From Solirubrobacteraceae bacterium (GTDB taxonomy: Bacteria; Actinomycetota; Thermoleophilia; Solirubrobacterales; Solirubrobacteraceae): DNA of 9,391 nucleotides. Of the stretch, positions 1 to 9,312 are shown piece by piece. The DNA lies in NCBI GenBank assembly GCA_016462625.1, contig JAEMSV010000131.1, positions 1-9,391 of the forward strand. The letters are read 5' to 3'. The position numbers and the translations under genes are program-made. The notes beneath the pieces were generated by a model. It saw nothing but the letters and a program-made list of their open reading frames with translations, ran no database searches and was not told the DNA's origin. Every line of letters begins with the position of its first letter. Within the stretch, counting starts at the first letter, position 1.

Positions 1-399
1 CACCGGGGGGGCCGGTGCGGGGGCGGGGGACGGGGCCGGCGCCGGCGCGCTGACGACCGGTGCCGGAGCGCTGACGACCGGTGCCGGAGCGCTCACAGCG
101 GGCGTCGGCGTGCTCGCTTCAGGGGCCGGGGCGGCCGCGACGGCCTGCGGCTCGGGCGCCGGCACCACGTGCGTGACGACGCGCCGCTGCTCGATCCGGC
201 GGATGACGACCTGCGGCGGCGCCGACGCGACCTGAGCCGCGGGCGCCGGGGTGCCGGCGCCGAGCGCGGGATCGCCGCCCGCACGTACCTGCAGGGCGAG
301 CGCGGCGAGCGCGACGCAGAAGGCACCGGCGGCCGACGACCACACCCACTGGGGCGCGATCGGGCGCACCGGGCGGCGCTTCGGGGCTGCGTCAGTCAT
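1..399 (-). CDS. Membrane-anchored Pro/Ala-rich protein, 3' end beyond window (partial)
   Basis: The frame opens at ATG (397-399) and stays open for 133 codons to the window edge, so the C-terminus is missing. The visible part has a short basic cytoplasmic N-terminus (MTDAAPKRRPVRP), one membrane helix at about residues 17-37 containing two tryptophans, a segment with VVIRRIEQRRVVTHVV, and then a long low-complexity Pro/Ala/Ser/Val linker that includes tandem SAPAPVV heptads. Such a linker usually spaces a folded extracytoplasmic domain away from the membrane; that domain would lie outside the window. The start codon sits inside the end of the upstream gene: the 8-nt overlap reads ATGACTGA, and no Shine-Dalgarno is seen, so translation is probably coupled. 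The helix plus VVxRR/VVTHVV pattern resembles the neighbouring 392-787 protein. Function is not recognised. The reading frame is well supported; its role is unknown. Confidence 0.72.
   Translation of the reverse strand, partial: MTDAAPKRRPVRPIAPQWVWSSAAGAFCVALAALALQVRAGGDPALGAGTPAPAAQVASAPPQVVIRRIEQRRVVTHVVPAPEPQAVAAAPAPEASTPTPAVSAPAPVVSAPAPVVSAPAPAPSPAPAPAPPV
47..88 (-). repeat. 21-bp tandem repeat, two exact copies plus a decayed third
   Basis: The 21-bp unit at 47-67 is repeated exactly at 68-88, and a diverged copy starts at 89 (GCGCTCACAGCGGG). It lies in frame in the partial minus-strand gene and encodes the heptad SAPAPVV. Exact identity at the DNA level points to recent duplication or slippage in the linker, so linker length may vary between strains. 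Confidence 0.85.
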
Positions 400-787
400 C
401 GTCGCCGCCGTGGTCGTCGTCGGCCTCGAAGCCGTCCTCGCCGTGGTCGTCGCCGCGCTCCTCCTGCTCGTACTCGAGGTCGTCGTCTTGGCGTACGCGC
501 TGGGCGACTCGGACGGCCGTGGGCTGCGGAGACGAGGCGACGGGCGGGGCAGCCGGTGCGGTGACGGGCGCCGCGGCGGGCGCCGCAACCGTGGTCTTCG
601 GCTTCTCACGCTTGGTGACGTGGATCGTGGTCCGCACGACCTCGGTGCGAACCTGCGGAGTCGCAGCGACCGGCGCGACCGTCTTCGTCGGGGTCGGCTG
701 ACCGCCCGCGGCCAGCGCGATCGCCGCCAACGCGCCCAGGCCTGCGACGGTCCCACCCGCGACGAACATCCGGGGGCTCAGGGACAT
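392..787 (-). CDS. Small single-pass membrane protein with acidic, His-containing C-terminal tail
   Basis: The 131-aa protein begins MSLSPRMFVAGG. The ATG at 785-787 is chosen because a good Shine-Dalgarno (TGAGGAG, minus strand, 794-800) precedes it by 6 nt; a longer frame to 937 would cross the divergent regulatory region. Features in order: a hydrophobic helix at about residues 8-27; an extracytoplasmic segment with VRTEVVRTTIHVTKREKPK; a Pro/Ala linker; and a strikingly acidic tail from about residue 100 rich in D and E with two DDHG motifs. Such a tail could bind metal cations, but this is only an inference. It is first in a minus-strand operon with the gene ending beyond base 1, and is transcribed divergently from the two-component system. 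A repeat array at 837-880 lies upstream, so control by that system is likely. The family is not recognised; it resembles the 3461-3736 protein in layout. Confidence 0.8.
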   Translation of the reverse strand: MSLSPRMFVAGGTVAGLGALAAIALAAGGQPTPTKTVAPVAATPQVRTEVVRTTIHVTKREKPKTTVAAPAAAPVTAPAAPPVASSPQPTAVRVAQRVRQDDDLEYEQEERGDDHGEDGFEADDDHGGDDD

Positions 788-836: not shown

Positions 837-880
837 CCGGGGCAAGCCCCGCGCAACCCTGGGTAAAGCCTTGGCAAAGC
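837..880 (-). promoter_or_regulatory. Array of four 11-bp direct repeats, putative response-regulator operator
   Basis: Read on the minus strand from 880 down, the sequence divides into consecutive 11-mers: GCTTTGCCAAG, GCTTTACCCAG, GGTTGCGCGGG, GCTTGCCCCGG. The first two are nearly identical and the others decay from them. Direct repeats with one helical turn of spacing are the usual binding site of OmpR/PhoB-family regulators, and such a regulator is encoded at 919. The array lies between the divergent starts at 787 and 919, so it could serve both. The exact 10-mer CTTTACCCAG recurs in the second array at 3005-3059. Confidence 0.6.
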
Positions 881-906
881 CTGCGCGAGACGGCTTCGGT
901 GGGGGT

Positions 907-912
907 TACGCT
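907..912 (+). promoter_or_regulatory. -10 hexamer TACGCT for the two-component operon
   Basis: TACGCT matches TANNNT and ends 6 nt before GTG 919. With usual -10 spacing, transcription would begin at or next to the start codon, giving a leaderless mRNA. No -35 consensus is visible; the repeat array just upstream suggests dependence on an activator. Confidence 0.6.
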
Positions 913-918
913 CGCGTC

Positions 919-1641
919 GTGACCGGCTCCGGACCACGCATCCTGCTCGTCGAGGACGAGGCGTCGATCGCCGAGCCGTTCGCCCGCGTGCTTGCGCGCG
1001 AGGGATTCGACCCGACGATCGCGGCGACCGCCGCCGACGCGCTGGCCGCCTTCGATCGGGTCCAGCCCGACCTGGTCCTGCTCGATCTCGCCCTGCCCGA
1101 CGGGGACGGCCGCGACGTGTGCCGCGAGCTCCGCGCGCGCTCGAACGTCCCGGTGATCATGGTCACCGCGCGCGGGACCGAGGTCGATCGCATCGTGGGC
1201 CTGGAGCTGGGCGCCGACGACTACGTCGTCAAGCCGTTCTCGGGCGCCGAGGTCGTCGCGCGCATCCGGGCCGTCCTGCGGCGCACCGGCAGGGCGGAGG
1301 ATGCGCCCGCCGCCCGCGCAGCGCTGGAGGCCGGCGGCGTGACGCTCGACCCCGCCGCCCGCCGGGCGCGCCTCGACGGCAGCGAGCTCGATCTGACCCG
1401 CAAGGAGTTCGACCTGCTCGCCGAGCTCATGCGGCACGCGGGCGCCGTCGTCACGCGCGAAGACCTCATGGCGCGCGTGTGGGACGAGAACTGGTTCGGC
1501 TCGACGAAGACGCTCGACGTCCACGTGGGCTGGCTGCGCCGCAAGCTCGGCGACGACCCATCCGCTCCGAAGCTCATCCAGACGGTCCGCGGGGTCGGGT
1601 TCCGCTTCATCGCGCCCGAGGAGCTGGACCCGTCGGTCTGA
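919..1641 (+). CDS. OmpR/PhoB-family two-component response regulator
   Basis: The 240-aa protein has two standard domains. The receiver spans about residues 7-120, with acidic pocket E12/D13, phospho-acceptor D56 (in VLLDLALPDGDG), T83 and K105 followed by PF. The winged-helix DNA-binding domain spans about 133-234, with DLTRKEFDLLAEL, the recognition region STKTLDVHVGWLRRKLGDD, and the closing wing TVRGVGFRF. Phosphorylated by the adjacent kinase, it should bind direct repeats and control transcription. The GTG at 919 is preferred because the protein then begins a few residues before the first receiver strand (PRILLVEDE) and lies 6 nt after a -10 hexamer; the more upstream ATG at 871 would put the operator array inside the gene. 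Its stop overlaps the kinase start. The target process cannot be told from sequence. Confidence 0.95.
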   Translation: MTGSGPRILLVEDEASIAEPFARVLAREGFDPTIAATAADALAAFDRVQPDLVLLDLALPDGDGRDVCRELRARSNVPVIMVTARGTEVDRIVGLELGADDYVVKPFSGAEVVARIRAVLRRTGRAEDAPAARAALEAGGVTLDPAARRARLDGSELDLTRKEFDLLAELMRHAGAVVTREDLMARVWDENWFGSTKTLDVHVGWLRRKLGDDPSAPKLIQTVRGVGFRFIAPEELDPSV

Positions 1642-3005
1642 GAGCCCGCCTCCTGCTGGCTCTGGCCTACGTGCTGGTGCTCGCGATCATCGCGCTCGAG
1701 GTCCCGCTCGCGGTCAGCACCGCCGACCGGGTCGACGCGGAGATCCGCTCGCAGGCGCGCGGGCAGGCCGATGTGGTGGCGTCGTCGGCCTCCGAGCTCG
1801 TCAAACCGCCGGACCGCGCCGGGCTCGACACGCTCGTGACGAGCGCCGCCCGCTCGGTGCGTGGGCGCGTGATCGTGGTCAACGCGCGTGGCCGGCTGCT
1901 GGCCGACTCCGGCGGTTCCCCTCGGGGAACCAACTACGCCGACCGGCCGGAGATCGCCCGTGCGCTGCGCGGGGACGCCGATCAGCGAGAGCGCCATTCC
2001 GACACGCTGGATCAGTCCCTGCTCGCCACCGCGGTCCCCGTCGTCGAGGAGGCGGAGACCGTGGGCGCGGTCCGCATCACGCAGAGCATGGCCGCCGTCG
2101 ACCGTGCCGTCCGGCGGGCGTGGATCGGCCTGGCCGGCGTGGGGGTCATCGTGCTGCTGATCGGCCTGGCGGTGGGGGCGCTGATCGCCGGGCAGATCGC
2201 CCGACCGGTCGTGCGCCTCGAGGACACGGCGCGGAGGGTCGGGGACGGAGACCTCGGGGCGCGCGCCCCGGTCGAGGGCTCGGCAGAGCAGCGCACCCTT
2301 GCGCGGACGTTCAACGACATGACCGCTCGCGTGCAGCGGCTCATTGCGTCCCAGCGCGAGTTCGTCGCCGACGCGTCGCACCAGCTCCGAACCCCGCTGA
2401 CGGGCCTGCGCCTGCGCCTGGAGGAGGCGCGCGCGGAGAGCGCCGACCCGCAGGTGCAGGAGGATCTCGACGCCGCCCTGGGCGAGGTCGACCGCCTGGC
2501 CGTCATGGTCGCCGAGCTTCTGGAGCTCAGCCGGGCCGGGGAGCGCGACGCGCCGGCCGAGACCCTGCTGCTCGGGGAGGTTGCCGAGCATGCGGCCGAG
2601 CGCTGGGCCGCGGAAGCGGCAACCCGCGGGCAGCGTGTGGCCGCGGATGTCGACGAGGCCGCCGACGCGGAGGCGTTCGTCCCCCGCGCGGACATCGACA
2701 GAGTGCTCGACGTTCTCGTCGAGAACGCCCTGCACTACGCGCCGCCGGCCACGACCGTGACCATCGCCGCGCGTCCGGGGGAGCTGACCGTGCGTGATGC
2801 GGGCCCCGGACTGGCCACGGACGAGTCCGAGCTGGTGTTCGAGCGTTTCCACCGAGGGAGCGCCGCGCGCGGTGGCCCGGGTGGAACCGGTCTCGGACTG
2901 CCGATCGCACGTGAACTGGCGAGCCGCTGGGGCGGGGAAGTCCGCCTCGCCAACGCGCCCGGCGGTGGCGCGCTCGCCCGGGTATCGCTCCCGCCGCAGC
3001 ACTGA
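1638..3005 (+). CDS. Membrane sensor histidine kinase (HAMP, HisKA, HATPase_c), apparent CTG start
   Basis: This is the partner kinase of the preceding regulator; about 455 aa. Order: membrane helix 1 at about residues 3-25 (RARLLLALAYVLVLAII); an extracytoplasmic sensor region of about 135 residues; membrane helix 2 at about 161-188; HAMP at about 186-238; HisKA with phospho-acceptor H248 in SHQLRTPLTGLRLRL; and HATPase_c with N-box N363 (ENALHYAPP), G1 box DAGPG, FERFHRG, and G2 box GGTGLGLPIA. All catalytic motifs are present. The start is unusual: no in-frame ATG, GTG or TTG exists between the regulator stop and the first helix. CTG 1638 overlaps the regulator stop as CTGA, matching the ATGA/GTGA coupling common in such operons. 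GTG 1668 is the alternative but would cut the first helix. The frame extends open upstream to 1119, but that part is a shadow of the regulator gene. The signal sensed is unknown. Confidence 0.93.
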   Translation: MRARLLLALAYVLVLAIIALEVPLAVSTADRVDAEIRSQARGQADVVASSASELVKPPDRAGLDTLVTSAARSVRGRVIVVNARGRLLADSGGSPRGTNYADRPEIARALRGDADQRERHSDTLDQSLLATAVPVVEEAETVGAVRITQSMAAVDRAVRRAWIGLAGVGVIVLLIGLAVGALIAGQIARPVVRLEDTARRVGDGDLGARAPVEGSAEQRTLARTFNDMTARVQRLIASQREFVADASHQLRTPLTGLRLRLEEARAESADPQVQEDLDAALGEVDRLAVMVAELLELSRAGERDAPAETLLLGEVAEHAAERWAAEAATRGQRVAADVDEAADAEAFVPRADIDRVLDVLVENALHYAPPATTVTIAARPGELTVRDAGPGLATDESELVFERFHRGSAARGGPGGTGLGLPIARELASRWGGEVRLANAPGGGALARVSLPPQH

Positions 3006-3059
3006 CTTTCCCGAACCTTTACCCAGACCTGGACGGCGGTTTCCCGGCGGGTTCGTACC
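3005..3059 (+). promoter_or_regulatory. Second array of 11-bp direct repeats, upstream of the 3068 gene
   Basis: From 3005 the plus strand divides into 11-mers: ACTTTCCCGAA, CCTTTACCCAG, ACCTGGACGGC, GGTTTCCCGGC, GGGTTCGTACC. Units 1, 2 and 4 share TTT(A)CCC; units 3 and 5 are weak. Unit 2 shares CTTTACCCAG with the array at 837-880, and both arrays read towards the gene they precede. The array begins at the last base of the kinase gene and runs into the -10 hexamer of the next gene, so it probably makes that gene a target of the adjacent regulator. Confidence 0.6.
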
Positions 3060-3061
3060 GT
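3056..3061 (+). promoter_or_regulatory. -10 hexamer TACCGT for the 3068 gene
   Basis: TACCGT fits TANNNT and ends 6 nt before ATG 3068, the same spacing as at 907 and 3449. No Shine-Dalgarno is present, which supports a leaderless transcript separate from the kinase mRNA. It overlaps the last weak repeat of the 3005-3059 array. Confidence 0.6.
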
Positions 3062-3067
3062 CGGCGC

Positions 3068-3442
3068 ATGACTGCACAGACCCGCCGCCGGAGCGCCGCC
3101 GCTATGGCCGCACTCACCGGCCTCATTCATCTCATCCTCGCGCCGGAGTACCTGTCGGAGGAGACCTACATCGGCGTGCTGTTCATCGGCGCGGCCATCA
3201 CCTGCGGCGCCGTCGCCGCCGTCCTCTGGCGCCGCGACGAGCCCCTCGCGTGGGGCATCGGGGCGCTGACCTGCGCCGGCATGTTCGCCGGCTTCGTCCT
3301 CTCCCGCACCGTGGGCCTGCCCGGCTTCCACGAGGCCGAATGGGAGCTCTCCGGCCTCATCACGCTCGTCGCGGACGCGGCGTTCGTCGGCCTGGCCGCG
3401 ACGAGCCTGCGGTCCGAGCTGCCTGCGGCCGCAACCTCCTGA
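3068..3442 (+). CDS. Small four-helix membrane protein of unknown function
   Basis: The 124-aa protein has a basic N-terminus (QTRRRS) and about four hydrophobic segments, roughly residues 11-27, 34-54, 60-79 and 93-113. Motifs that look constrained are HLILAPEYL (H21, E27) in helix 1 and GFVLSRTVGLPGFHEAEWE (H88, E89, E91) in the loop before helix 4. Clustered His and Glu at the membrane edges could form a metal or proton site, but this is only a guess. The pattern resembles uncharacterised actinobacterial membrane proteins found near two-component systems. It has its own promoter and repeat array, so it is probably controlled by the upstream regulator rather than only co-transcribed with it. 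Start: ATG with no alternative nearby and a -10 hexamer 6 nt upstream. Confidence 0.85.
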   Translation: MTAQTRRRSAAAMAALTGLIHLILAPEYLSEETYIGVLFIGAAITCGAVAAVLWRRDEPLAWGIGALTCAGMFAGFVLSRTVGLPGFHEAEWELSGLITLVADAAFVGLAATSLRSELPAAATS

Positions 3443-3460: not shown

Positions 3461-3736
3461 ATGCGCGCGCGCCTGCTTATCGGCTGGGTCCTGCTCGGCC
3501 TGGCGGGCGTCGCGCTGGCGGTCGGGGTGACCATGGCCGCGACGAGCGTGACGTCCCAGCGGATCGGGCTCGATTCCGAGCCGCTCTCCGCGGGCAGCGA
3601 CCTCGTTCCGTCGCCGGTCGAAACGACGACCCGCACCGTCACCGTGACGGTGCAGACGACGGCGGCCCCACCGACGACGGTGGAGGACTCCGGCGAAGGA
3701 CACGGCCGGGGGCGGGACCACGCCGAGGACGACTAG
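3461..3736 (+). CDS. Small single-pass membrane protein with TVTVTV segment and acidic/His tail
   Basis: The 91-aa protein has a short basic N-terminus (MRAR), one strong helix at about residues 5-27, an extracytoplasmic stretch of Ser/Thr/Pro, the beta-like ETTTRTVTVTVQTTAAPP, and a hydrophilic C-terminal tail with EGHGRGRDHAEDD. The layout (helix, alternating T/V segment, D/E/H/G tail) parallels the 392-787 protein on the other side of the kinase pair, suggesting paralogous or functionally matched envelope proteins. The tail may bind cations; no family is recognised. It starts 18 nt after the four-helix gene and ends 12 nt before the stop of the convergent gene at 3749, leaving no room for an obvious terminator. 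Confidence 0.78.
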   Translation: MRARLLIGWVLLGLAGVALAVGVTMAATSVTSQRIGLDSEPLSAGSDLVPSPVETTTRTVTVTVQTTAAPPTTVEDSGEGHGRGRDHAEDD

Positions 3737-7408: not shown

Positions 7409-7455
7409 TTCCCGTCGACGAAACCTCCGCTCACCGGAGGTTTCGTCGAGGGGAA
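7409..7455. terminator. Strong hairpin between ybaB and recR
   Basis: A perfect 15-bp stem (TCGACGAAACCTCCG at 7415-7429 with its complement at 7435-7449) closes a 5-nt loop. After one G-G mismatch it extends by 5 more pairs (TTCCC 7409-7413 with GGGAA 7451-7455). It begins 6 nt after the ybaB stop. No T-tract follows, so it is either a U-less terminator of the kind common in high-GC actinobacteria or an mRNA 3'-end stabiliser. Its position argues that dnaX-ybaB transcripts end before recR. Confidence 0.75.
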
Positions 7456-7489: not shown

Positions 7490-8089
7490 GTGTACGCCCC
7501 GCCGATCCAGCGGCTGATCGCCGAGCTGTCGAAGCTCCCGGGGATCGGCCAGCGCACCGCCCAGCGCCTCGCGTTCCACATCCTCCGGGAGACTGATGAG
7601 GACGCGACCGCGCTCGCCGCGGCGATCCGCGAGGTCAAGGAGAAGATCGGCACGTGCGAGATCTGCTTCAACCTCGCCGAGGGCCCCACGTGCCGGATCT
7701 GCCAGGACGATCGGCGTGATCCGCAGGTCATCTGCGTGGTCGAGGAGTTCGGCGACGTCATCCCGATGGAGCGCACCCACGAGTTCCACGGGCGCTACCA
7801 CGTGCTCGGCGGCGCCCTGAGCCCGATCGACGGGGTCGACCCCGAGGACATCCACCTCGCCGAGCTCTACCGCCGGGTGCTGCAGGACGGGGTCACCGAG
7901 GTCGTGATCGCGACGAACCCCACGACGAGCGGCGAGGCGACCGCGCTGCACATCGCCGAGGAGCTGCGCGAGGCCGCGCCCGACGTCGCCGTGACCAGGC
8001 TCGCCTCAGGACTACCCGTCGGCGGCGACCTCGAGTACGCCGACGAGGTCACGCTCGGCCGCGCGTTCGCCGGCCGTCGCCGGCTCTAA
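7490..8089 (+). CDS. recR: Recombination mediator protein RecR
   Basis: RecR works with RecO (and RecF) to load RecA on SSB-coated single-stranded DNA during gap repair; it forms a ring-shaped clamp. The 199-aa protein has the usual length and all landmarks: helix-hairpin-helix LPGIGQRTAQRLAFHIL (16-32); C4 zinc finger C56/C59/C68/C71; Toprim domain beginning ICVVEEFGDV (E85) with the conserved FHGRYHVLGGALSPIDGV; ATNPTTSGEATA; and the C-terminal LASGLPVGGDLEYADEVTLGRAF signature. GTG 7490 gives the canonical start of the family a few residues before the first helix. Its TAA stop overlaps the stop of the convergent sigma-factor gene. Confidence 0.97.
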   Translation: MYAPPIQRLIAELSKLPGIGQRTAQRLAFHILRETDEDATALAAAIREVKEKIGTCEICFNLAEGPTCRICQDDRRDPQVICVVEEFGDVIPMERTHEFHGRYHVLGGALSPIDGVDPEDIHLAELYRRVLQDGVTEVVIATNPTTSGEATALHIAEELREAAPDVAVTRLASGLPVGGDLEYADEVTLGRAFAGRRRL

Positions 8090-9282
8090 GCGGGCTTGCA
8101 GAGAACCCCGATCGGGATGTCGATCGGTCCCGAGCCCGGGGACGCCGGCCGCCGGAACGCCACCGTGACCGACGTCGCCCTCCCCAGCACGCTCGGGTCG
8201 TCCACGAGCTGCGGGCCGAACACCCCCTCGTCGAACCCCGCGCCCTCGGTCGGCGCGACCGCCGCGACCACGAAGCCGGGGCGGCAGCCCAGCGAGAACT
8301 TCGTGACCCGCGCGGGCGGCACCAGCGGCGCGGCCGGGACCCGGACCACCCGGTCGACGACCTCCCAGCCCGCCGGGACCCGGTCGCCCCGGTGCAAACG
8401 CTGACCCGCCACGACCGGCCCGCCGGGAACCGCCCGCGGCAGCGGCTCGTCGTCGCCGATAACGCGCGTGCTGACGATCCCTGCGGCGCCCGCCGTGAGG
8501 ACCGCCGCGCCCACCACGGCGGCGGTCACCTTCACCGTGGTCGACGCGCCCCCGCCGAACAGCGCGGCCAGCGAGAGCCCGCCGCCGCCCGCGACCACCG
8601 CAACGCTCGGGTCGAACACCCGCAGGCTGCGCCGCAGCCGCTTCAGATCCCGCTGGAACTCCTGGCACGCCGAGCAGCCCTTCAGATGCCGCCGTGCATG
8701 CTCACTCGGCCGCGTGCCCTCGTCGTGGGCGGTGAGCAGCTCGTCGCGGATCGCGTCGCAGTCGGCCTCGCGCGCGGCCGCCGCCTTCATGAGGTTCGTC
8801 CGTGCGCGGTTCATGAGCATCCGCGTCGCGCTCGTCGTCAGACCCAGCTCGGCGGCGAGCTCCTCGTGCGTGCGGCCGTCGATCTCCCGGCCGAGCAGGA
8901 CCGCCCGCTGCGCGTCGGGCAACGCGCTGACGTCCGCGACCACGCTGTGCAGCCGCTCACGCTGCGCGAGCACGACCACGGGATCGCCGTCGTCGGCGGC
9001 CGGCTCAGCGTCCTCGAGCGGGGTCACGAGCTTGCGCGCCCGCAGCTCGTCGATGACCCGGTTGCGCGTCAGGCGGTACAGCCACGGCTTGAGGTCCTCG
9101 ATCTCCTGGTCCTCGGCGAACGCCGCGTGCGCGCGGAGGAACACCTCCTGCACGACGTCCTCGGGCTCGATGCCCGTGCCGCGCAGCATCTTCGCCGCGT
9201 AGCGCTGGAGCGGGCGCTCGTAGCGCCGGACCGCCTGCGCGGACCGCTCGTCGGCATGGCGGGTGACGGAGGGAGGCGGCAT
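8086..9282 (-). CDS. ECF sigma factor fused to zf-HC2 anti-sigma-like domain with membrane segment
   Basis: From ATG 9282 the protein has 398 aa. Sigma region 2 spans about 18-86 (EDVVQEVFLRAH, PWLYRLTRNRVIDELR), region 4 about 108-168 (ALPDAQRAVLLGREIDGRTHEELAAELGLTTSATRMLMNRART). An anti-sigma-type zinc motif follows: C175, then 24 residues on H199, C203, C206 (HLKGCSAC), the zf-HC2 spacing. Next are two hydrophobic stretches (about 226-242, Gly-rich; 252-270, the better helix) and a C-terminal domain of about 125 residues with two cysteines, unlike known enzymes. If only the second stretch spans the membrane, the C-terminal domain is outside and could sense, with the sigma module tethered until release. 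A GTG at 9312 would add 10 residues (MDPYGACAAL); the shorter form is preferred because a TATGGT hexamer falls inside that extension. Targets are unknown. Confidence 0.9.
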   Translation of the reverse strand: MPPPSVTRHADERSAQAVRRYERPLQRYAAKMLRGTGIEPEDVVQEVFLRAHAAFAEDQEIEDLKPWLYRLTRNRVIDELRARKLVTPLEDAEPAADDGDPVVVLAQRERLHSVVADVSALPDAQRAVLLGREIDGRTHEELAAELGLTTSATRMLMNRARTNLMKAAAAREADCDAIRDELLTAHDEGTRPSEHARRHLKGCSACQEFQRDLKRLRRSLRVFDPSVAVVAGGGGLSLAALFGGGASTTVKVTAAVVGAAVLTAGAAGIVSTRVIGDDEPLPRAVPGGPVVAGQRLHRGDRVPAGWEVVDRVVRVPAAPLVPPARVTKFSLGCRPGFVVAAVAPTEGAGFDEGVFGPQLVDDPSVLGRATSVTVAFRRPASPGSGPIDIPIGVLCKPA

Positions 9283-9297
9283 CAGCGCTGCGCATGC

Positions 9298-9303
9298 ACC
9301 ATA
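9298..9303 (-). promoter_or_regulatory. Possible -10 hexamer TATGGT for the sigma-factor gene
   Basis: On the minus strand TATGGT ends 15 nt before ATG 9282, which would give a leader of about 8-9 nt. If real, it rules out the GTG start at 9312. No -35 is visible and the spacing differs from the other genes, so support is weak. Confidence 0.3.
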
Positions 9304-9312
9304 CGGATCCAC

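Follow-up and report, generated by a model that had tools for sequence, protein, structure and literature searches.

We examined a 9,391-nt stretch of a Solirubrobacteraceae genome (GenBank assembly GCA_016462625.1, contig JAEMSV010000131.1; hereafter "the window"), in which an operon for an OmpR/PhoB-type response regulator and a sensor histidine kinase lies between two arrays of 11-bp direct repeats (Table 1). Both arrays are directed away from the regulator operon and, as an earlier note on this DNA had observed, each points at the gene it precedes: the divergent array at two genes for small proteins, and the downstream array at genes for a four-helix protein and another small protein.

The two arrays share one layout, i.e., four half-sites at an 11-bp pitch with the core TTTRCC and, separated from the last of them by exactly 10 nt, a -10-like hexamer. 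On the minus strand the half-sites read TTTGCC (878-873), TTTACC (867-862), TTGCGC (856-851), and TTGCCC (845-840); on the plus strand they read TTTCCC (3007-3012), TTTACC (3018-3023), CTGGAC (3029-3034), and TTTCCC (3040-3045). This bears out the periodicity reported in the earlier note and its count of four minus-strand units, as do resampling and relatives below, while its five plus-strand units reduce to four: the supposed fifth (3049-3059) lies on the 10-nt spacer (3046-3055) and runs into the start of TACCGT. The exact sequence said to be common to both arrays, CTTTACCCAG, occurs exactly twice in the window, one copy per array and in opposite orientations, and 1000 first-order Markov resamplings of the window contained a mean of 0.0 copies and in no case two. 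Using a two-unit matrix set by hand from the window and three close relatives, the window's two best sites are the arrays themselves, at 23.2 and 21.0, compared to a 95% level of 12.9 and a highest value of 17.3 for the maximum score over 200 resampled windows, a comparison that is partly circular because the matrix was set after the array sites had been seen.

Table 1 Features of the window, with the basis of each assignment or its main characteristics.
Feature	Position	Strand	Remarks
Second gene of the divergent operon, small membrane-anchored protein	1..399	-	Cut by window end
First gene behind the divergent operator, small protein	392..787	-	One hydrophobic N-terminal stretch, motif VRTEVVRTTIHV, acidic tail ending DDD
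-10-like hexamer CACGGT	829-824	-	10-nt spacer 839-830 after last half-site
Divergent operator (putative), four half-sites, 11-bp pitch	840..878	-	Direct reading
-10-like TACGCT before the regulator gene	907..912	+	6 nt from regulator GTG; promoter function inferred
OmpR/PhoB-type response regulator	919..1641	+	Response_reg and Trans_reg_C Pfam matches; recognition helix TLDVHVGWLRRKLG
Sensor histidine kinase	about 1632..3005	+	HAMP, HisKA, HATPase_c; start uncertain, GTC 1632 or CTG 1638
Downstream operator (putative), four half-sites, 11-bp pitch	3007..3045	+	Direct reading
-10-like hexamer TACCGT	3056..3061	+	10-nt spacer 3046-3055 after last half-site
Four-helix, probably membrane, protein	3068..3442	+	Predicted structure model, sequence
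Small membrane-anchored protein	3461..3736	+	Core TSQRIGL..EPLSAGS, tail ending DD

Relatives are an independent test of the array score. Across 232 genomes of the order, the kinase was found at E 1e-60 or better in 71 genomes, at 74 places. Sixty regions were taken, 59 of them kinase places; after four had been dropped (L131 and L141, short contigs; L157, regulator match only 38%; L169, a related second system) and the window and the Svornostia abyssi locus L003 added, 58 loci remained, with 13 of the 74 kinase places outside this count. An array scoring at least 15 was found on the divergent side in 31 of the 58 loci and on the downstream side in 21, compared to a first-order Markov resampling mean of 0.1 on each of the two sides and to 0 of 584 coding pieces of the same loci at gap 11. 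For gaps of 10, 11, and 12, the numbers of loci were 9, 31, and 5 on the divergent side and 3, 21, and 2 downstream, and without the four loci used to set the matrix, 27 of 54 divergent and 18 of 54 downstream arrays remained. At a score of at least 12, an array was present on at least one side in 46 of the 58 loci, i.e., orthologous flanks keep the 11-bp periodicity, the loss of which had been named as grounds for giving up the idea. On the sequences scored here, the repeats are conserved in many related bacteria. Chance periodicity in GC-rich DNA might be argued from the degenerate units 3 and 4, which leave two poor matches among the four units of each array, and from the silence of Tandem Repeats Finder and a repeat finder, which reported neither array as such. 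The conservation results contradict this explanation, as pitch and spacing stay fixed across the order when set against the resampling and coding controls, and we reject it as next to impossible.

The spacing to the predicted promoter elements is equally regular. Aligned column-wise, 26 downstream arrays gave CTTTGCC-N4-CTTTACC-N10-TAgcgT with a start codon shortly after, and 34 divergent arrays gave four units, N10, and cAcgaT; in both alignments the first core base of the last unit lies 16 nt upstream of the -10. The composite pattern TTTNCC-N4-CTTTNCC-N10-TANNNT had 17 matches in the 232 genomes and none in its reversed control, and with an N11 spacer there were no matches (reversed control, 1). 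In most relatives the gene next to the downstream operator is that of the small membrane-anchored protein found at 3461-3736 in the window; in the window itself, L003, and L111 it is the four-helix gene. In these same three loci the downstream array has two more units than elsewhere, and the distance from its first unit to the start codon is +62, 22 bp more than the commonest value in the others, +40 (6 of 25 listed).

These promoters bear directly on the sign of the regulation. The arrays overlie the -35 position of both, and sequence alone cannot give the sign, so the regulator might bind the arrays as a repressor, its occupancy of the -35 position excluding RNA polymerase until the kinase signal changes. 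We regard repression as unlikely. The N10 and N11 counts describe a spacing fixed to the base, whereas shifts should matter little to a repressor, and neither promoter has a good -35 in place of the array, as would be expected where an activator takes over the role of that element.

Eight of the 17 composite matches adjoin a kinase ortholog. The nine away from it are leads only: L191 and L192 precede haem-binding proteins (PF14376 by scan for L191, by similarity for L192), L190 and L194 precede cupredoxin-like secreted proteins, L193 and L195 precede members of the downstream small-protein family, L196 leads to a chalcone-synthase-like enzyme, L198 to a DUF3089 protein, and L197 to one unclear reading frame. 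For some genomes, the promoters in L190, L191, L192, and L194 hint at a link to redox or metals.

In the closest relatives, the exact sites are confined to this locus. Three related whole genomes of 4.6-5.1 Mb each (G001, G002, and G003) held 2, 1, and 2 exact matches to TTTRCC-N4-CTTTRCC, all five at the flanks of this operon, and none to the reversed pattern; the scatter of equally good sites that would have spoken against the regulon idea is absent. With one mismatch allowed, one unrelated extra site appeared in each of G001 and G003, and the reversed control gave 1, 2, and 2 matches in G001, G002, and G003. On these two scans the circuit looks local in the close relatives. The "regulon" of the earlier note has to be qualified: no convincing sites were found elsewhere in the nearest genomes. 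Over the 232 genomes, the exact 11-bp pair had 67 matches and a 12-bp version 46, and 21 of the 67 compared to 0 of the 46 lay within 2.5 kb of the kinase. The order-wide match counts alone are less telling than this linkage.

Similar pairs also occur at a related second system, the regulator of which is 51-57% identical to the local one: 11-bp TTTRCC pairs adjoin it in L169, L170, L171, L173, L174, and L183, and one exact TTTRCC-N4-CTTTRCC site in G172 lies beside it. In G064, G172, G173, and G178 the pairs of this second system also adjoin relatives of the four-helix protein, and a further site in L173 lies ahead of a protein similar to the DUF2231 protein at a site in L060. A pattern search for the recognition helices of the second system gave none.

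The regulator itself matches PF00072 at 89.8 bits and PF00486 at 102.9 bits, both over the cut-off, and its receiver and winged-helix Trans_reg_C domains, together with the 11-bp operator pitch across the 58 loci, fit the OmpR/PhoB-type class. A GW pair in the recognition helix occurs in 39 loci (the helix is unreadable in L122 and L148), and arrays scoring at least 15 are present in 34 of these 39 compared to 6 of 17 loci with other pairs (Fisher p 1.8e-4, a value that ignores kinship). The half-sites vary with the helix: in GW loci, 1 of 53 arrays departs from the initial T of the second half-site, compared to 9 of 12 arrays in the other loci. In the receiver-domain tree the RA type forms one clade, and L132, with CCTTACC, is placed elsewhere. 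Arrays of the same geometry also stand before the regulator gene in L155, L161, L164, and L165 (score at least 12) and, more weakly, in L158 and L159, and L160 too has a plus-strand array; this position suggests that in the clade of the first four loci the regulator may control its own gene. In the window, no good -35 was found before the regulator gene, where CGCGAG stands at 884-889.

The arrays could instead be bound by another protein, e.g., a paralogous OmpR-type regulator, the local regulator having other targets. Whole genomes offer many such proteins (36 matches to the PhoB profile in G001 and 44 in G003), and the second system has similar adjoining pairs in other genomes. Two observations make this quite improbable: the exact sites of the three nearest genomes lie solely beside this operon, and the half-sites co-vary with the recognition helix of the regulator encoded there. 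Together, the linkage to the kinase, the arrays before the regulator gene, and this co-variation strengthen the link to the regulator that the earlier note had offered as an inference.

Taken together, the arrays are likely to be operators of the regulator encoded between them, which would activate the flanking genes by binding at the -35 position. The sequences themselves show the fixed spacing, the conservation, the co-occurrence of arrays and operon, and the co-variation with the recognition helix; from these we infer binding, its dependence on phosphorylation, activation rather than repression, and an order of loading. Specifically, each 11-bp half-site would take up one subunit of the phosphorylated regulator, arranged in head-to-tail dimers, and the good pair (units 1-2) would assist the loading of a second dimer at the weaker pair (units 3-4). 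The latter stands in the -35 position exactly 10 nt before the -10, from where the dimer could recruit RNA polymerase and switch on both the divergent small-protein operon and the downstream operon of four-helix and small proteins. The geometry of this proposed mechanism matches available descriptions of the PHO box, of PhoB at the -35 region, and of the afs box.

Several observations weigh against this interpretation. The first unit of the window's downstream array, TTTCCC, does not match TTTRCC. Twelve of the 58 loci lack an array at score 12, among them a clade of L124, L133, L136, L137, and L138 in which the small-protein gene follows closely behind the kinase; in L133 and L137, relatives of the divergent protein sit downstream instead. 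The co-variation of helix and half-site rests on about two independent changes, uncorrected for kinship. Order-wide, 46 of the 67 exact matches are not within 2.5 kb of the kinase, some of these adjoining the related second system and others looking incidental, and the reversed pattern alone gives ~23 matches (a count of control columns). Finally, when the three nearest genomes were scanned with a permissive composite pattern, one site was returned compared to three control matches, and we therefore claim no wider regulon there.

The kinase gene has an unusual beginning. At the conserved first codon, within 1619-1641, the window has no ATG, GTG, or TTG, and the candidate starts are GTC 1632 and CTG 1638, the latter overlapping the TGA of the regulator gene. 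We examined 56 loci against the conserved N-terminus x-S/T/G-L-R...LLLALAYV, and 50 could be aligned by the rule used (6 could not). Their first codons were GTA (20), ATA (7), ATG (7), CTG (7), GTC (6), GTG (2), and TTG (1), so that ATG, GTG, or TTG accounts for 10 of the 50, and the second base was T in all 50. Over the next 12 codons the difference per position was 0.29, 0.17, and 0.54, i.e., mainly at the third position, as in translated sequence. A Shine-Dalgarno-like core (at least 4 bases, 4-10 nt upstream) was present in 31 of 33 loci with GTA, ATA, or GTC compared to 3 of 17 others (Fisher p 7e-8, kinship not corrected for), and in L124, L127, L136, L137, L138, L144, and L145 an in-frame upstream stop lies at most 5 codons from the first kinase codon. 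Two points speak against a non-standard start: internal GTG, TTG, or ATG codons may serve as starts, and the AGGAG is partly set by the regulator's Glu codons. A literature search on the theme of such kinase starts gave nothing on this case, as judged by the titles listed.

None of the four predicted target proteins (1-399, 392-787, 3068-3442, and 3461-3736) was matched by a Pfam or NCBIfam profile at E 0.001. The two small membrane-anchored families, with cores SQ.IGL..EP.SAG (downstream) and VRT.VV..T (divergent), are unrelated to each other and both have acidic tails. In the subset of the 58 loci recognised by pattern, the C-terminus ends in Asp-Asp in 14 of 14 loci for the downstream family and in 19 of 23 for the divergent family. 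For the four-helix protein, a first fold without alignment was poor, and the model has four long helices at a mean predicted local distance difference test score (pLDDT) of 89.6. Its homologues have no Pfam domain, and nothing reached E ≤0.001 in a fold search; the Streptomyces copper-storage proteins that top its list at E 0.2 were given no weight.

A broader reading of these results, which we put forward tentatively and rate at somewhat below even chances, is that of an undescribed two-component system of the Solirubrobacterales. Here a rigid composite promoter (TTTRCC repeats, N10, -10) would drive unrelated families of tiny membrane-anchored proteins with acidic tails ending in Asp-Asp, and the kinase would usually be started at a non-standard codon (GUA, AUA, GUC, or CUG), keeping its level far below that of the regulator. 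Most of these starts would be backed by a Shine-Dalgarno sequence within the end of the regulator gene, and the Asp-Asp small proteins could be ligands or feedback partners of the kinase. The switch proposed from the arrays would provide a little-studied actinobacterial order with a testable control circuit, including half-site, spacing rule, regulator, and targets; it would tie unrelated families of small envelope proteins to one signalling system; and the natural variation of recognition helix and half-site would offer a specificity series for DNA recognition in the OmpR family.

Svornostia abyssi (L003; labelled Baekduiaceae) and two metagenome-assembled genomes (L001 and L002) are the closest relatives identified, with kinase identities of 77-82%. 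The L002 record is titled as a Bifidobacterium breve metagenome-assembled genome, yet its locus resembles Solirubrobacterales relatives, and the title is probably wrong. The kinase of L003 (G001:C1:1982580-1983942) matches in two different frames, as pieces that overlap (query 1-212 and 205-454), reflecting either a sequencing error or a broken gene. Elsewhere in the window, an inverted repeat at 7409-7455 (21-nt arms, 95% complementary, 5-nt loop) is flanked by genes that we take, from their sequences, to be YbaB-like and RecR-like, and positions 8086-9312 encode an ECF-type sigma factor of 408 aa, with Pfam matches confined to residues 28-174 and a long extension at the C-terminus.

Among known regulators, the best-scoring solved relatives are RegX3 (2oqr, E 1e-68) and MtrA (2gwr, E 1.1e-52). 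Among the 25 best NCBIfam profiles none reached its cut-off: the MtrA equivalog scored 223.1 bits (cut-off 300) and the PhoB equivalog 210.5 (cut-off 296.2). The PhoB profile does not discriminate among the regulators of G001 and G003, with none passing and the local one ranking 7th and 5th, respectively. We rejected membership of the Pho regulon (PhoB/PhoP) on genomic context: phoU is not beside the local regulator and lies elsewhere (G001:2692721-2693278; G003:C2:121182-121733) with another OmpR-type match near each copy, and the system was therefore not filed there. SARPs combine a winged helix with a bacterial transcriptional activation domain and lack a receiver; they are not response regulators, whereas the local protein has a receiver domain and no bacterial transcriptional activation domain among its Pfam matches.

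In the open-access literature searched, partly judged by title or the start of the abstract, we found no description of this system; the kind of switch is known, and the system itself appears to be unstudied. CutR of Streptomyces, a regulator with a kinase and with envelope and secretion proteins among its targets, was an early lead from TTTA-like sites and was dropped, since its published site is TAWATAAA (PMC12802291) and the local one consists of 11-bp TTTRCC repeats. Mycobacterium tuberculosis PhoP binds 7-bp direct repeats with a 4-bp spacer, i.e., at an 11-bp pitch (PMC4832192), but the local half-site sequence and targets differ, the solved chains of that PhoP rank below RegX3 and MtrA, and the two are not in the same orthologous group as far as tested. 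The PHO box of E. coli PhoB and Streptomyces coelicolor PhoP consists of head-to-tail 11-nt repeats to which an OmpR-type regulator binds, with 7 bases of each repeat conserved and the other 4 less so, and the S. coelicolor core GTTCACC resembles the local CTTTACC (PMC4415409); a structural model with RNA polymerase places PhoB over the -35 region in contact with sigma (PMC3348028). Beyond having no phoU next to its regulator, the local system differs from it in its half-site and in targets with no visible phosphate link. The afs box of the SARP AfsR, two 11-bp direct repeats in a 22-bp box centred at -29.5, lies over the -35 region in promoters whose own -35 is poor, its 3' repeat lying 8 bp from the -10 (PMC10936776). 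The local boxes leave 10 nt from a 6-bp core and, assuming a start 7 nt after the -10, stand at about the same place as the afs box.

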